Program-made: the position numbers and the translations under genes
Notes under the pieces: model-generated
Database searches by the model: none
What the model was told of the DNA's origin: nothing
What the model saw: only the letters and a program-made list of their open reading frames with translations
In this document: piece by piece, positions 2,105 to 42,667 of the stretch
How positions within the stretch are numbered: the stretch's first letter is position 1
How the letters are laid out: every line of letters starts with the position of its first letter
NCBI GenBank assembly: GCA_029959295.1
Contig: JASCOH010000002.1
Coordinates: 372,001 to 436,000, forward strand
Reading direction: 5' to 3'
DNA from: Flavobacteriaceae bacterium PS02334
Lineage (GTDB): Bacteria > Bacteroidota > Bacteroidia > Flavobacteriales > Flavobacteriaceae
DNA: 64,000 nucleotides

Positions 2105-2717
2105 AAACTAAAAGGGCTTTAATTGTTTTCTTAATGTGGTTTGTCAAATCTGTTTTTATGTAATTGTCAAAATCTTCTTCGTTCTTGAAATCAAAAATTT
2201 CTTCGTAGTAAGTTCGGTTCATCTGAAAGTGAAAAAAAGTGCCCATGATCGTCGGAGGCAAAAGTTGGACATTAATATCTTTTGCAAAAACGCCTTGTTC
2301 TTGACCTTCGTTGATAATTTTTTTTAGAGACCTCAAATTGTCTTTTTTCATATCGGTAAAAACTTTGAAATCCATCACTCGCTTTTTTGAAGAAAATTCA
2401 AAATGCAAAATTTGGTACATGCACTTATTTTTATTCAGTCGGCTTATGTAAAGTTCGATCAGCTTGTCAATTTTTTGCATCGGAGGCAGATCTTCGGTGA
2501 AAAGATTTTCGAGTTGCATTTTCAAATCAGAAGTGCGAAAGAGAATAAGCGACTCTAGTAATTTTTCTTTGGAACCAAAATAGTAGGAGACCATCGCAAT
2601 ATTGATATTTGCCTTTTTTGCAATCTCTCTTATGGAAGTTCCATCGAATCCTTTCTCTGCAAACAGCTCTTCAGCGACCTGAAGAATCTGTGTTTGCTTT
2701 TCATTAAATTCGGTCAT
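2094..2717 (-). CDS. TetR/AcrR-family repressor of the efflux operon
   Basis: 207-aa regulator with a TetR N-terminal helix-turn-helix at about residues 8-55 (ILQVAEELFAEKGFDGTSIREIA, then INIAMVSYYFGSKEKLL). The C-terminal ligand domain is family-variable. It is the first gene of the operon with the TolC-like and adaptor genes. A perfect -7 element (TAACTTTG, 2753 to 2746 on the minus strand) lies upstream. It is immediately preceded by overlapping inverted repeats at 2759-2782, so autorepression and control of the efflux genes is likely. The inducing ligand is unknown. Confidence 0.92.
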   Translation of the reverse strand: MTEFNEKQTQILQVAEELFAEKGFDGTSIREIAKKANINIAMVSYYFGSKEKLLESLILFRTSDLKMQLENLFTEDLPPMQKIDKLIELYISRLNKNKCMYQILHFEFSSKKRVMDFKVFTDMKKDNLRSLKKIINEGQEQGVFAKDINVQLLPPTIMGTFFHFQMNRTYYEEIFDFKNEEDFDNYIKTDLTNHIKKTIKALLVYEN

Positions 2718-2745
2718 TGTGTTTCCTTGTTTTTAAAATCGAGTA

Positions 2746-2782
2746 CAAAGTTAAACACTTGTTTAAATTAAACGATTGTTTA
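2746..2782 (-). promoter_or_regulatory. tetR-efflux operon promoter and operator
   Basis: On the minus strand TAACTTTG (2753-2746) matches the TAnnTTTG -7 element. Just upstream are two overlapping palindromes: TTGTTTAAATTAAACGA (2759-2775, one arm mismatch) and TAAACGATTGTTTA (2769-2782, perfect 5-bp arms). They cover the spacer and -33 region, a usual position for a TetR repressor. Operator assignment is inferred from position and symmetry. Confidence 0.65.
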
Positions 2783-3076
2783 GTTTTTGTTTAACAATAT
2801 ATTAACAGAAAACGTTATCGAAAAATACCATAGAATAAATCTATATCATTTATTTATAATTTTGTTAATCAGATGTTTATGTTAATTTATATAAATTATA
2901 AATTTAATTTATATTTTTTGAAGACTTGAAGCTGTTGAAAAACATTAGGAAGTAATATAAGAGTAAATGTAGGTCAAAAATTGCTAATAAATTGCAATTT
3001 TCTGTCCTATTTTGGATGTAAATTCTACTGGAAATTTCTTCCTAGCGTTAATAGTTTCAAAAAAAATGTCTCGTTT

Positions 3077-3108
3077 TTGGCATCCTATTCTTTTTTCTTT
3101 TAAATTTG
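3077..3108 (+). promoter_or_regulatory. Promoter of the cysE leader transcript
   Basis: TTG at 3077-3079, a 21-base spacer and TAAATTTG at 3101-3108 match the Bacteroidota promoter pattern TTG-N17-23-TAnnTTTG. The predicted transcription start, about 3112-3114, is only 8-10 bases before the ATG of the leader peptide at 3122. Confidence 0.65.
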
Positions 3109-3121
3109 AAATACTTAAAAA

Positions 3122-3202
3122 ATGATAATGTTAGGTCTAAAACAAAATTGTGTGCTATGTATGTGCTGTCCGCTTTCTGGGGATGCTTTTGCTATGGTAT
3201 GA
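3122..3202 (+). CDS. Cys-rich leader peptide, candidate attenuator peptide for cysE-cysK
   Basis: A 26-codon reading frame (ATG 3122, TGA 3200-3202) that starts 8-10 bases after the predicted transcription start. Residues 10-17 read CVLCMCCP, so four of eight codons are Cys (3149-3151, 3158-3160, 3164-3166, 3167-3169). It precedes a terminator at 3232-3260 and the serine acetyltransferase gene, the first step of cysteine synthesis. The arrangement resembles classic leader-peptide attenuation (trp, his) and the polycysteine leaders described in mycobacteria. There is no obvious Shine-Dalgarno, which is normal in this phylum. Translation and function are inferred. Confidence 0.6.
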   Translation: MIMLGLKQNCVLCMCCPLSGDAFAMV

Positions 3203-3260
3203 TTTGGTTAAAACCTTGAAATATAATAGATAAGCTCCTCAAATTCGAGGGGCTTTTTTT
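3179..3260 (+). terminator. Attenuator: terminator hairpin with alternative antiterminator
   Basis: Terminator: AAGCTCCTC (3232-3240), loop AAATTC, GAGGGGCTT, then a T run to 3260. The 5' terminator arm can instead pair with GGGGATGCTT at 3179-3188 (nine pairs, one G-U, one bulged T; T3178-A3241 extends it). This competing arm lies 10 bases after the last Cys codon and inside the leader frame. A ribosome that reads to the stop at 3202 would cover it and allow termination. A ribosome stalled on the early Cys codons would leave it free. The pairing was derived by eye and not by an energy calculation. Confidence 0.6.
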
Positions 3261-3283
3261 ATATTTATAATTTAATAAAGGAA

Positions 3284-4099
3284 ATGAAACATCCAATTTA
3301 TACCGCCAATTATCAAAAATGGCAATCACTTCCGGACAAGGCAAAAGCAGAACAATGGATTGAAGAAGCCTTTCAATGGCTGTTTTGCATCGGACAAGAA
3401 TATGCAGATTATGACTATTTTATAGTGAAAGAAAAACAGCTTTGGGATCGGTTTTCAGAATTGCTTTTACATTTTGATTTAGATAAAAATAAAATTACTC
3501 AAATTATTGATAATCTTAAGTCTAATGTAGTTTTACTTCATGATAAGCTTGAAGATGATTTAAAAGCTATTTTTGAGTTCGATCCGGCTGCAAAATCTAG
3601 AAATGAGGTCTTGATTTCCTATCCTGGATTCTTTGCAATTGCAGTTTATCGGCTTGCAAATTTTCTTTGGAAAAGTGAAATTCCGGTTTTGCCGAGGCTT
3701 TTTAGCGAGTATGTTCATGGCAAAACAGGCATCGATATTCATCCTGGAGCAACGATCGGAGAGCGATTTTTTATCGATCACGGCACCGGAATTGTGGTTG
3801 GAGAAACGGCAATTATCGGCGATGATGTGAAAATTTATCAAGGCGTAACGCTCGGCGCATTGATTGTAAGGAAGGAAGAAGCGTCTGTAAAAAGACATCC
3901 GACAATCGGAAATCAGGTCACAATTTATGCAAATGCGACCATTTTAGGAGGCCAAACTTTGATTGGAAACGGGTCAATTATTGGTGGAAATGTCTGGATT
4001 ACGAACTCAATTCCGGAGAATTCTTTGGTTTATCATAAGAGTGAAGTGACCATAAAAAGTAAAAATCCGTTTCCAGAACCTTTGAATTTTGTAATTTAA
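3284..4099 (+). CDS. cysE: Serine O-acetyltransferase
   Basis: Transfers acetyl from acetyl-CoA to L-serine, giving O-acetylserine, the committed step of cysteine synthesis in the cytoplasm. 271 aa. An N-terminal helical part (residues 1-140) precedes a left-handed beta-helix of hexapeptide repeats. That part begins IDIHPGATIGERFFIDHGTGIVVGET and continues through GDDVKIYQGVTLGA and HPTIGNQVTIYANATILGG, the standard SATase signature with its catalytic His residues. It ends near SEVTIKSKNPFPEPLNFVI. The start ATG at 3284 follows a purine-rich AAAGGAA stretch. cysK starts 15 bases after its stop, so the two enzymes are co-transcribed downstream of the attenuator. Confidence 0.93.
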   Translation: MKHPIYTANYQKWQSLPDKAKAEQWIEEAFQWLFCIGQEYADYDYFIVKEKQLWDRFSELLLHFDLDKNKITQIIDNLKSNVVLLHDKLEDDLKAIFEFDPAAKSRNEVLISYPGFFAIAVYRLANFLWKSEIPVLPRLFSEYVHGKTGIDIHPGATIGERFFIDHGTGIVVGETAIIGDDVKIYQGVTLGALIVRKEEASVKRHPTIGNQVTIYANATILGGQTLIGNGSIIGGNVWITNSIPENSLVYHKSEVTIKSKNPFPEPLNFVI

Positions 4100-4114
4100 T
4101 TAAGTCAAATATAT

Positions 4115-5026
4115 ATGAAAGCAAATACAATTTTAGACACAATCGGGAAGACTCCGGTGGTCAAAATCAATAAACTTTTTGGAAATAAGCACCATGTTTT
4201 TATTAAGCTAGAGAGAAATAATCCAGGAAATAGCATCAAAGATCGTATCGCTTTGGCGATGATTGAAGATGCGGAAAGTAAAGGATTGCTTACAAAAGAA
4301 AGCGTGATAATTGAACCGACTTCGGGGAATACTGGTATCGGTTTGGCACTTGTTGCGGCGGTAAAAGGATACAAATTAATCCTCGTTATGCCCGAATCTA
4401 TGAGCGTGGAAAGACGCAAATTGATGTCCATTTATGGTGCGGAATTCGAACTTACGCCACGCGAAAAAGGCATGAAAGGAGCGATTGAAAAGGCTGCTGA
4501 ATTGGCAGCATTGACTCCAAATTCATGGTCGCCAAAGCAATTTGACAACCCTGTAAATGTCGAAATTCACAAGAAAACTACGGCTCAAGAAATCATTGAA
4601 GACTTCCCTGATGGACTCGATTATATCATTACTGGTGTTGGAACTGGCGGTCATATTACTGGAATTGCGTCGGTTTTAAAGGAGAAATTTCCGAATTTGA
4701 AAGTCTTTGCTGTGGAACCAGAATTGTCTCCGGTTTTAAGCGGTGGAAGTCCGGCGCCACACCCAATTCAGGGGATTGGAGCAGGTTTTGTGCCTTCAAT
4801 TTATGATAGTAATTTGATTGACGGCGTCATTCAAGTAAGCAAGGATGACGCGTTTGAATTCGCTAGAAACCTGGCCAAAGAAGAAGGGATTTTAGCAGGA
4901 ATTTCAACAGGAGGATCGTTAGCTGCAGTCAATAAAAAGCTTTCAGAATTGCCAGAAGGAGTGACGATTTTGACTTTTAATTATGATACAGGAGAACGTT
5001 ATTTGTCAATCGAAGGCTTATTTTAA
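4115..5026 (+). CDS. cysK: Cysteine synthase (O-acetylserine sulfhydrylase)
   Basis: PLP enzyme that makes cysteine from O-acetylserine and sulfide, 303 aa, the usual CysK length. Visible motifs: NPGNSIKDR with the PLP-binding Lys (about residue 43), the substrate loop [12 protein letters not shown], the phosphate-binding [20 protein letters not shown] and GISTGGS. The PIQGIGAGF loop favours CysK over CysM. It forms a two-gene operon with cysE and could form the cysteine synthase complex with it, since CysE here ends in Ile as in the known complex (inference). Control is probably through the leader at 3122-3260. Confidence 0.93.
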
Positions 5027-5070
5027 GGCTATTTTGATAACGATTATCGAGAAAGATATTCGACAATCTA

Positions 5071-5224
5071 GGTGCGAAAGGGATTGAAACGGAAAGCCTC
5101 GCAGGCAGAAAACTATTTTTTCTTGGCTTGAAAAAGCGACCAGCGGAAGCTTTTTTCAGGCCGTAGAAAAAAAGTTTTTTGACAAGAGCTTGGAGAGAAA
5201 AGCCCGACCCGAAGGGTTTCGCCC
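5071..5224. repeat. Large imperfect palindromic intergenic element
   Basis: A nested palindrome of about 154 bases. The outer ends pair: GGTGCGAAAGGG (from 5071) with GGGTTTCGCCC (to 5224). Inside is a long hairpin, 5109-5178. Its arms AAAACTATTTTTTCT and GGCTTGAAAAAGC are complemented, with few mismatches, by GCTTTTTTCAGGCC and AGAAAAAAAGTTTT around the loop GACCAGCG. A small GCC-TCGC-GGC hairpin sits at 5096-5106. It lies after cysK and contains no credible gene. I recall similar blocks between Flavobacterium genes, so a dispersed REP/BIME-like repeat is likely; copy number cannot be checked here. Confidence 0.6.
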
Positions 5225-5253
5225 AAATAAAAAAATAGAAATTAGTACAAATG

Positions 5254-5286
5254 AAAAACCCTGCCAATTGCTTGAGCAGGGTTTTT
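5254..5286. terminator. Bidirectional terminator between cysK and the yceI operon
   Basis: AAAAACCCTGC (5254-5264), then a loop, then GCAGGGTTTTT (5276-5286). A GC-rich stem flanked by A and T runs can terminate both cysK (plus) and the convergent yceI operon (minus). Confidence 0.8.
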
Positions 5287-5308
5287 CGCGTACAGATTTT
5301 TGGAAAAA

Positions 5309-5878
5309 TTAGAATTTCAAATCTACAGCCAATTCGAATTCGTCGTTGATTGCTTTGTCACCAAGGCCTTCGAAAACGCTACCTGAACCGTATTTGATGT
5401 CATATTTAGTTCTGTCAACTTTTAAAGCAGCAGTTGCAGTATTTTTTCCAACAGTAATGTTGAATTTCACTGGGTTTGTGATTCCTTTGATAGTCAAATC
5501 AGCAGTCACAGCGTATACGCCAGCAGATTTTTTTCCGATAGTTTTGAAAACCAATTTCGCTGTTGGGAATTTGTCAGTTCCGAAGAAATCGTCAGCTTTT
5601 AAGTGACCTTCTAATTTCTCTTTTCCTTCACCAGCTTTCAAGTCAGTAACAGTGATTGAAGTCATGTCAACAATGAAAGTACCGTTTACCAAAACGTCTT
5701 TTTTGAAAGATAAAGATCCTTGAGATAAGTTGATTGTCCCTTCGTGTTGTCCTGTTACTTTTTTACCAACCCAGCTGATTTTGCTCTTTGATATGTCTAC
5801 TTTTTTCTCTTGTGCTGTTGCCGAGAATGATCCTGCTACTACTAATAAAGCGATTGCGATTGTTTTGAAATTTTTCAT
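5309..5878 (-). CDS. YceI-family secreted protein
   Basis: Periplasmic lipocalin-like protein of the YceI family, which binds polyisoprenoid or other amphiphilic ligands. 189 aa with a signal peptide (residues 1-22, ending ATAQ). Family signatures are visible: VDISKSKISWVGKKVTGQHEGTI at the start, LEGHLKADDFFGTDKFPTAKL in the middle and LTIKGITNPVKFNI near residue 130. Third gene of the marR-nitroreductase-yceI operon, 33 bases after the nitroreductase, so it is probably induced together with it. The true ligand is unknown. A second, divergent YceI protein lies at 39881. Confidence 0.9.
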   Translation of the reverse strand: MKNFKTIAIALLVVAGSFSATAQEKKVDISKSKISWVGKKVTGQHEGTINLSQGSLSFKKDVLVNGTFIVDMTSITVTDLKAGEGKEKLEGHLKADDFFGTDKFPTAKLVFKTIGKKSAGVYAVTADLTIKGITNPVKFNITVGKNTATAALKVDRTKYDIKYGSGSVFEGLGDKAINDEFELAVDLKF

Positions 5879-41854: not shown

Positions 41855-42667
41855 TCATAATATTGAAATTTTAGAAGGAGCAACGCCATATTTTTTCTTA
41901 AAGGCAAAGGAAAAATGCGACAAATCTTCAAAACCTACATCCAAATAAACTTCTGAAGGAGATTTTGCTTTTTCACTCATCAAAAAATAAGCTTCCTGCA
42001 AGCGTCTTTGCAAAAGCCATCTACTTGGCGTGTCTTGAAATGTCTTCTGGAAATCTCTTTTGAAAGTAGCCAAACTTCTTCCGGTCAAGTAGGCAAATCT
42101 TTTCATCTGTACGTTGAAATGAAAATTTCGATTCATGAAAGCTTCTAGATCAATCTTTCCAGGCTCGCTGAAATCGAATAAAATATCTTTTAATTCTGGA
42201 TTTATTTTTATCAGAAGATAGACAGCTTCTTTTATTTTCAGCCTAAAAATTTCTTCATTATTCTCTTGTGGCAATTGAAAGTAAACCAGTAAAGATTCCA
42301 TAAAACTCTTGTAAAGCGGATTATGTGGCACATTTACAATCGCTTCATCCGTTTTTTTTCGGTTGGCTGTATAATTAATTTCTTGGCTGATTTCGCGCAA
42401 AATATCCTGGCTCAAAAAAAGCGAAATAGATTTGTAATCGCCATTTTCTGGAGGCAATTTTAAAAATTTAGCCAATCGGTTTCGAGTGCTTAATCGAAAA
42501 TCCCCTTCTTGAGAATGATAACTGTTTTTTGCATCCCAAGCCGTGACTGTGCCAGCAATCTGGTAGCTGAAAACATGCTCAGGGATGAAATTTTCTCCTT
42601 CTCTGCTTTTTGAAAAATAACAAGAATAGAGAATTTGCGGTTTTTTAATTTCCTCTTTTTCGTTCAT
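41855..42667 (-). CDS. AraC-family regulator
   Basis: 270 aa. N-terminal ExsA-like cupin part (about 10-130; VFSYQIAGTVTAWDAKNSYHSQEGDFRLSTRNRLAKFLK). C-terminal AraC double HTH with MKRFAYLTGRSLATFKRDFQKTFQDTPSRWLLQRRLQEA and PSEVYLDVGFEDLSHFSFAFKKKYGVAPS. It follows the aldehyde dehydrogenase gene (66-base gap) on the same strand and may regulate it. Confidence 0.92.
   Translation of the reverse strand: MNEKEEIKKPQILYSCYFSKSREGENFIPEHVFSYQIAGTVTAWDAKNSYHSQEGDFRLSTRNRLAKFLKLPPENGDYKSISLFLSQDILREISQEINYTANRKKTDEAIVNVPHNPLYKSFMESLLVYFQLPQENNEEIFRLKIKEAVYLLIKINPELKDILFDFSEPGKIDLEAFMNRNFHFNVQMKRFAYLTGRSLATFKRDFQKTFQDTPSRWLLQRRLQEAYFLMSEKAKSPSEVYLDVGFEDLSHFSFAFKKKYGVAPSKISIL

Follow-up and report, generated by a model that had tools for sequence, protein, structure and literature searches.

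Upstream of cysE and cysK in Flavobacteriaceae bacterium PS02334 lies a short open reading frame that is rich in cysteine codons and is followed by a hairpin with a run of T, and this arrangement raises the question of whether the supply of cysteine controls the genes for its synthesis through translation of a leader peptide. The locus was analysed within one stretch of DNA of 64,000 nucleotides, referred to here as the window, which belongs to a genome assembly of 4.6 Mb. The two genes are assigned from profile matches: the top NCBIfam match of cysE is TIGR01172, with 176.3 bits under its cut-off of 210.65, and the EpsC serine acetyltransferase model and the Pfam models Hexapep and SATase_N are all above their cut-offs, as is TIGR01139 for cysK. 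The features of the locus are as follows.

3076..3108, plus strand: putative promoter of the Bacteroidota type, TTTG-N21-TAAATTTG, read from the sequence (TTTG at 3076-3079, 21 nt, TAAATTTG at 3101-3108)
3122..3202, plus strand: leader open reading frame of 26 codons, MIMLGLKQNCVLCMCCPLSGDAFAMV, with ATG at 3122 and stop codon TGA at 3200-3202, from the sequence and the strict screen described below
3128..3224, plus strand: 1:2-like structure, in which the leader frame including the Cys codons pairs with 3179-3224; from the ribosome-free fold of the entire leader, prediction only
3149..3169, plus strand: putative regulatory stretch with Cys codons at 3149, 3158, 3164 and 3167 and a Met codon at 3161, read from the sequence; Cys clusters recur in relatives
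3177..3196, plus strand: predicted 5' strand of the antiterminator (region 2), core GGGGATGCTT at 3179-3188, from duplex prediction and the fold of 3170-3245
3225..3242, plus strand: predicted 3' strand of the antiterminator (region 3), which takes in the 5' arm of the terminator at 3232-3240, from duplex and fold prediction
3232..3260, plus strand: predicted intrinsic terminator, a stem at 3232-3255 (9 pairs, 5 of them GC) followed by a T run
3284..4099, plus strand: cysE, serine O-acetyltransferase, from NCBIfam and Pfam profile matches
4115..5026, plus strand: cysK, cysteine synthase A, from a match to TIGR01139

The 26-codon frame described in the original prediction is present from ATG 3122 to the TGA at 3200-3202, as are its four Cys codons within eight codons, and the cysE ATG lies 81 nt downstream of the leader stop. 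The consensus promoter that had been claimed fared less well: promoter-like boxes are present, but their match to the sigma-70 consensus (9/12) is at chance level, with 13 such sites in 2500-5600 against 9.9 expected, and this reading was rejected in favour of the Bacteroidota form, which fits better. We take TTTG-N21-TAAATTTG to be a promoter by the Bacteroidota consensus as generally known. This pattern occurs 6 times in the window against 6.65 expected, i.e. at chance in number, and in 28 of 47 distinct leaders TAnnTTTG stands at most 60 nt from the ATG, as opposed to 5.5% in shuffled sequence, so that it is position and not frequency that speaks for this candidate promoter.

The terminator had been placed about 30 bases past the leader stop, and its stem indeed starts 29 nt after the stop codon, with a predicted energy of -13.4 kcal/mol. 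The competing segment within the leader frame was likewise located, with GGGGATGCTT at 3179-3188, 9 nt past the last Cys codon. The duplex of 3177-3196 with 3225-3242 reaches -14.7 kcal/mol, whereas shuffles average -8.3 (p 0.013; 0.013-0.02 over two tests). When the 3' arm of the terminator is incomplete (RNA 3170-3245), the predicted fold is the antiterminator (-18.6 kcal/mol, z -2.49, equalled by 3/200 shuffles), and RNA 3205-3262 folds to the terminator (z -3.55, equalled by 0/200). Free RNA 3170-3262 is predicted to prefer the terminator over the antiterminator. The complete RNA with no ribosome on it is predicted to fold to the terminator, so for read-through the antiterminator would have to arise before it. 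When the entire leader is folded (3117-3262, z -3.92), region 2 is taken up by pairing with the Cys-codon stretch and the terminator forms as well, as expected when no ribosome reads the leader; given this 1:2-like structure, 1:2 pairing may occur at the window's own leader. On these models, the predicted folds supply the order of events needed for ribosome-mediated attenuation.

Rfam covariance models, including those for the SAM riboswitch and the T-box, found no match at gathering score anywhere in the window. A screen of the whole 64-kb window for leaders of nine amino acids, in which a significant antiterminator was required, returned the cysE leader and one Thr match. The latter, a short open reading frame with a terminator and weak pairing at window position 41889 (minus strand), is probably a chance match.

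In the attenuators of trp, his and leu operons, a leader frame carries codons of the end product, an antiterminator competes with a terminator, and a ribosome at the leader stop masks region 2. Judged from the sequence and the modelled folds, the element in the window is very probably a transcription attenuator of this ribosome-mediated trp/his type, which senses charged tRNA-Cys and controls cysE-cysK. From the parts, recurrence, spacing and pairing that were computed, we infer translation of the leader, stalling, termination and a response to cysteine in the following manner. Transcription would start a few bases 5' of the leader ATG. When Cys-tRNA is plentiful, the ribosome would reach the stop at 3200-3202 and cover region 2 (3179-3196), upon which the terminator at 3232-3255 would form and transcription would end before cysE. 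Under a shortage of Cys-tRNA, it would stall at the Cys codons in 3149-3169, leaving the segment from 3177 free to pair with 3225-3242 before the 3' arm of the terminator is made; with the antiterminator formed, RNA polymerase would continue into cysE-cysK.

Recurrence of the element was assessed with a strict screen, which required an ATG-initiated frame of 9-45 amino acids, at least 3 Cys per 10 codons and, 8-150 nt downstream of the last Cys codon, a terminator. It was applied to 81 upstream stretches of at most 520 nt each (80 cysE loci from named records plus the window). This screen returned 31 leader-terminator matches at cysE, in 26 of 81 loci and about 42 kb, as opposed to 3 matches in the remaining approximately 1.1 Mb outside the cysE upstream stretches (both strands, 2 x 582 kb). 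The distinct leaders number 30 rather than 31, as the second frame of L014 overlaps another match. The matches belong to Flavobacterium, Edaphocola and MAGs bearing the labels Bacteroidales, Bacteroidetes, Bacteroidia and Saprospiraceae. Of the named relatives, the 12 nearest (L005-L016) include 9 that satisfy the strict rule; L016 carries a two-Cys version whose pairing falls short of significance (p 0.33), and a leader at cysE is absent from L006 and L011. Further loci, which were the best-scoring matches of each search and not a random sample, carried a leader in only 5 of 56 cases at cysE (L121-L176) and in only 3 of 60 at sulphate genes (L177-L236); some of them repeat genomes already counted, as identical leaders reveal (L121 and L005, the latter being the named Flavobacterium sp. 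AG291; L196 and L110). PS02334 is itself taken to belong to Flavobacterium, as L121 comes from a genome of its genus and shares its leader with AG291. The trait is patchy, and many relatives have no leader. The check on conservation proposed for the original prediction came out in its favour, with exceptions: the Cys codons and the competing stem do recur, while many relatives lack the element and some leaders lack the stem. As a separate observation, a palindrome, CTACT-N-GTAG, perhaps the site of an Rrf2-type repressor, stands before cysE or the leader promoter in L005, L007-L010, L012-L016 and L044.

Although the strict screen allowed 8-150 nt between the last Cys codon and the terminator, this distance is 45-74 nt in 30 of the 31 matches, the single exception being the overlapping L014 frame (27 nt). 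Pairing was examined in 52 leaders from leader-bearing loci with a terminator 40-85 nt after the last Cys codon, which gave 47 distinct peptides, by setting the 45 nt that follow this codon against the 5' arm of the terminator and comparing the result with shuffles. The predicted antiterminator is stronger than shuffles at p<=0.05 in 39 of 47 leaders and at p<=0.01 in 26, and 8 of the 47 fail this test. When own and swapped terminator arms were compared over the 47 distinct peptides, none of 20,000 permutations equalled the observed sum, and the same count (0/20,000) was obtained for 29 clusters after removal of row and column means, i.e. of composition (-147.2 vs -5.3, sd 16.6). Leaders also hold longer exact copies of the 3' arm of their own terminator than of those of others (5.59 vs 4.67 nt; 0/20,000, 29 clusters).

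The antiterminator starts a median of 12 nt past the last Cys codon (quartiles 8-14); shuffled segments share this median with quartiles of 4-23, and it is therefore the narrowness of the spread alone that carries information. Counted from the last Cys codon, the stop codon ends at 33-48 nt in 40 of 47 leaders (33 nt in the window's leader) and at 6-21 nt in the other 7. A ribosome extends roughly 10-15 nt beyond its decoding site, and with this reach a stall at the Cys codons would leave most of the antiterminator free, while a ribosome at the stop would cover it. Pairing of the 1:2 kind is significant (p<=0.05) in 7 of 47 leaders and does not appear to be general. In four leader families N/S is 0.66, 0.40, 0.58 and 1.38, a measure that RNA constraint confounds, and selection at the level of the peptide (codons) appears to be weak.

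These results bear on three other explanations of the locus. The Cys-rich peptide itself could act, either through metal or redox binding or by causing arrest as a nascent chain, and motifs such as CMCC could indeed bind metal on general chemical grounds; the peptides, however, are very diverse in sequence, whereas the codons hold their position relative to the terminator, and the targets examined are genes of sulphur metabolism, so that an acting peptide is extremely unlikely. Control could instead be translational, with the hairpin only protecting or punctuating the RNA, as in mycobacteria, where polycysteine short open reading frames control cysteine genes through translation attenuation (Canestrari 2020, as cited in the excerpted text of PMC13236596). 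Against this stand the T-tailed terminator between leader and cysE, the near-constant spacing, the pairing of leaders with their own terminator arms and the 81 nt that separate the leader stop from the cysE ATG, which leave translational control highly improbable. It is also conceivable that control lies mainly with a protein repressor that has an Rrf2-like operator, the leader being incidental, as the palindrome lies upstream of 11 of 47 scanned cysE genes and an Rrf2-like gene (by eye) precedes the sulphate genes of L111. Leaders are present both with and without the palindrome, however, and CTACT-N-GTAG was not found upstream of the window's cysE, which makes a main role for such a repressor very unlikely there and suggests that relatives may combine a repressor with an attenuator. 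Attenuation through Cys sensing, as originally predicted, is the reading supported by the parts of the element, its recurrence at cysE, the spacing, the own-terminator pairing and the predicted folds.

As assigned from sequence, the target genes belong to the synthesis of Cys and Met, and relatives carry the same putative design at some of their other sulphur operons, including those for sulphate assimilation. Sulphate genes were inspected in 11 named relatives. In L017-L021, cysE follows a cysN-like gene (by eye), and the same genomes carry two Cys leaders, each with its own terminator, before their sulphate genes (L103, L109, L108, L104 and L110); L102 and L094 likewise have two leaders and two terminators there. 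One leader is present in L112, L105 has one leader with three Cys and one with two, and no leader was found at the sulphate genes of L107 and L111. Overall, two leaders with two terminators occur in 14 loci (L024, L028, L030, L038, L094, L102, L103, L104, L108, L109, L110, L267, L284 and the pair L283/L286 on one contig). L212 was considered as a further tandem locus on account of a second Cys-rich frame (MHTCMCNNCMCCC), yet a single terminator was found and it was rejected.

Searches by pattern extended the range of targets. A poly-Cys pattern matched 92 of 296 genomes of the phylum, and a leader with a terminator was seen in 1 of the 30 loci taken (L237-L266), namely L242, where it precedes a NirA/sulphite-reductase-like gene that scores below model cut-offs. 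A pattern MMCC(Y)M matched 19 of 199 genomes of the genus, and a leader with a terminator was seen in 11 of 20 loci (L267-L286), at least three of these leaders being repeats of known ones (L268, L271 and L280). The leaders of L267 precede a uroporphyrinogen methyltransferase (TIGR01469 above cut-off) and a frame that by eye resembles a sulphite reductase flavoprotein, and those of L284 precede metY (TIGR01326 above cut-off). The antiterminator test was passed by L242, L267, L275, L286 and the first leader of L284, and was failed by the KMMMCCMM-type leaders of L276, L277 and L283 and the second of L284 (p 0.06-0.30); most metY leaders tested fail it. Rfam models at gathering score gave nothing in 20 related loci except a SAM riboswitch in L030 (RF00162, 2337-2455, minus strand), which lies close to the tandem Cys leaders of this Bacteroidales MAG.

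Another group of loci, which we guess to be from Prevotella, has a polycysteine leader and a terminator 70-84 nt past the Cys run in 14 cases (L287-L299 and L304). They derive from 20 stretches, of which 13 had been selected for a match situated some 4-5 kb away from a cysE match and the other 7 were further matches of the same family; leader and terminator were present in 13 of 13 cysE-linked stretches vs 1 of 7 others. Downstream of the leader in L291 lie a DUF4395 protein, metY (TIGR01326), a LuxR-type regulator, cysK, cysE and a second PF01053 enzyme; for the loci besides L291, frame sizes were compared and a cysE match was available for 13, and L300, among the others, has downstream frames of similar size and no terminator that could be found. 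The test for an antiterminator of the Flavobacterium type failed in all 14 loci (p 0.32-0.81), and the mechanism there may differ from the Flavobacterium kind.

The composition of the leaders raises the further possibility that both sulphur amino acids are sensed, in that a stall on scarce Cys-tRNA or Met-tRNA would report the sulphur supply and not cysteine alone. In 37 non-redundant leaders, among which kinship is only partly removed, Met accounts for 64 of 337 non-Cys residues (19%) around the Cys cluster (58 of 315 once two rows that owed their inclusion partly to Met content are set aside), as opposed to 2.0% in the window's open reading frames of at least 250 amino acids and 2.65% in 2,953 random short open reading frames, an enrichment of 7-10-fold. 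L267-L286 were left out of this count, having been found by a pattern that contains Met codons. Met-rich leaders such as NMMMCMCC and CMMMMCCM stand before sulphate operons, and KMMMCCMM stands before metY in L284. While the enrichment suggests that leaders report both amino acids, the window's own Cys cluster holds just one Met, and Met codons could serve RNA pairing or act as alternative starts; dual sensing is accordingly a possible but rather doubtful reading.

Leaders with Cys codons are already known for actinobacterial cys operons and for cysS of Rhodobacterales, and the element described here would be a variant of ribosome-mediated attenuation. It is like the trp/his/leu class in having leader codons of the end product, a terminator, an antiterminator and a stop placed to mask region 2; it differs in its Cys (and Met) codons, its occurrence in Bacteroidota, its 14 tandem loci and the lack of detectable 1:2 pairing across the set, although the window's own fold has one. 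In the excerpted account of uORFC-8-2, a predicted Cys-codon attenuator sensing tRNA-Cys charging, a short upstream frame with conserved Cys codons likewise precedes a terminator-like U run. That element occurs exclusively upstream of cysS, the gene for cysteinyl-tRNA synthetase, in the alphaproteobacterial Rhodobacterales, and its conserved stem holds two tandem Cys codons (PMC8632094), whereas here biosynthesis operons (cysE, cysK) of Bacteroidota carry larger and variable Cys/Met clusters. Actinobacterial cys operons are similarly preceded by runs of Cys codons in short frames, but have no conserved terminator hairpins according to the excerpts of PMC1262725, in contrast to the terminator and antiterminator predicted here.

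Within the same phylum, clues for leader-peptide attenuation have been described in Flavobacterium psychrophilum, with 5' elements at pheA and hisG among others; they share the class of mechanism and the position upstream of amino-acid operons, and the section on 5' elements makes no mention of cysteine (PMC9723704, as excerpted). Short open reading frames resembling leader peptides have been noted in the excerpted text on B. thetaiotaomicron (PMC7366714), and the excerpts of PMC2965389, PMC4833913, PMC11109978 and PMC3766115 contain nothing on a cysteine attenuator in Bacteroidota. Open-licence literature, a scope outside which most subscription papers fall, gave no recognisable description of such an attenuator.

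If the reading of the window is true, cysteine synthesis in Bacteroidota joins the pathways under ribosome-mediated attenuation. Because RNA polymerase and ribosome have to be tightly coupled for a switch of this kind to work, it would also offer a way to ask whether they are so in this phylum, while leaders in series pose the question of how stacked attenuators shape a response. The broadest form of the proposal is a widespread but patchy Cys-plus-Met attenuator regulon of Bacteroidota at cysE-cysK, sulphate-assimilation, sulphite-reductase-like and metY operons, often in tandem, which senses both amino acids and needs tight transcription-translation coupling even though the phylum mostly initiates translation without a Shine-Dalgarno sequence; on this we are close to evenly divided, leaning somewhat against.

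The genome of PS02334 itself carries a second such element (L090; C68, about 252300-252440, minus strand) upstream of its sulphate-assimilation genes. Its frame has two Cys codons with a GTG start and one with an ATG start, its terminator lies 64 nt past the last Cys codon and its predicted antiterminator is significant (p 0.004), so that it is a putative weaker second copy of the attenuator. A degenerate search of the genome for the Cys stretch returned the window site and three matches with 3 mismatches, and six stretches around PF01053-like genes contained no leader. The sole MCCCC match of the genome (L257) is an open stretch of 8 residues and was rejected as a leader. A dispersed repeat was also observed at window positions 5066-5215, 3' of cysK, with 12 more matches in the same genome.
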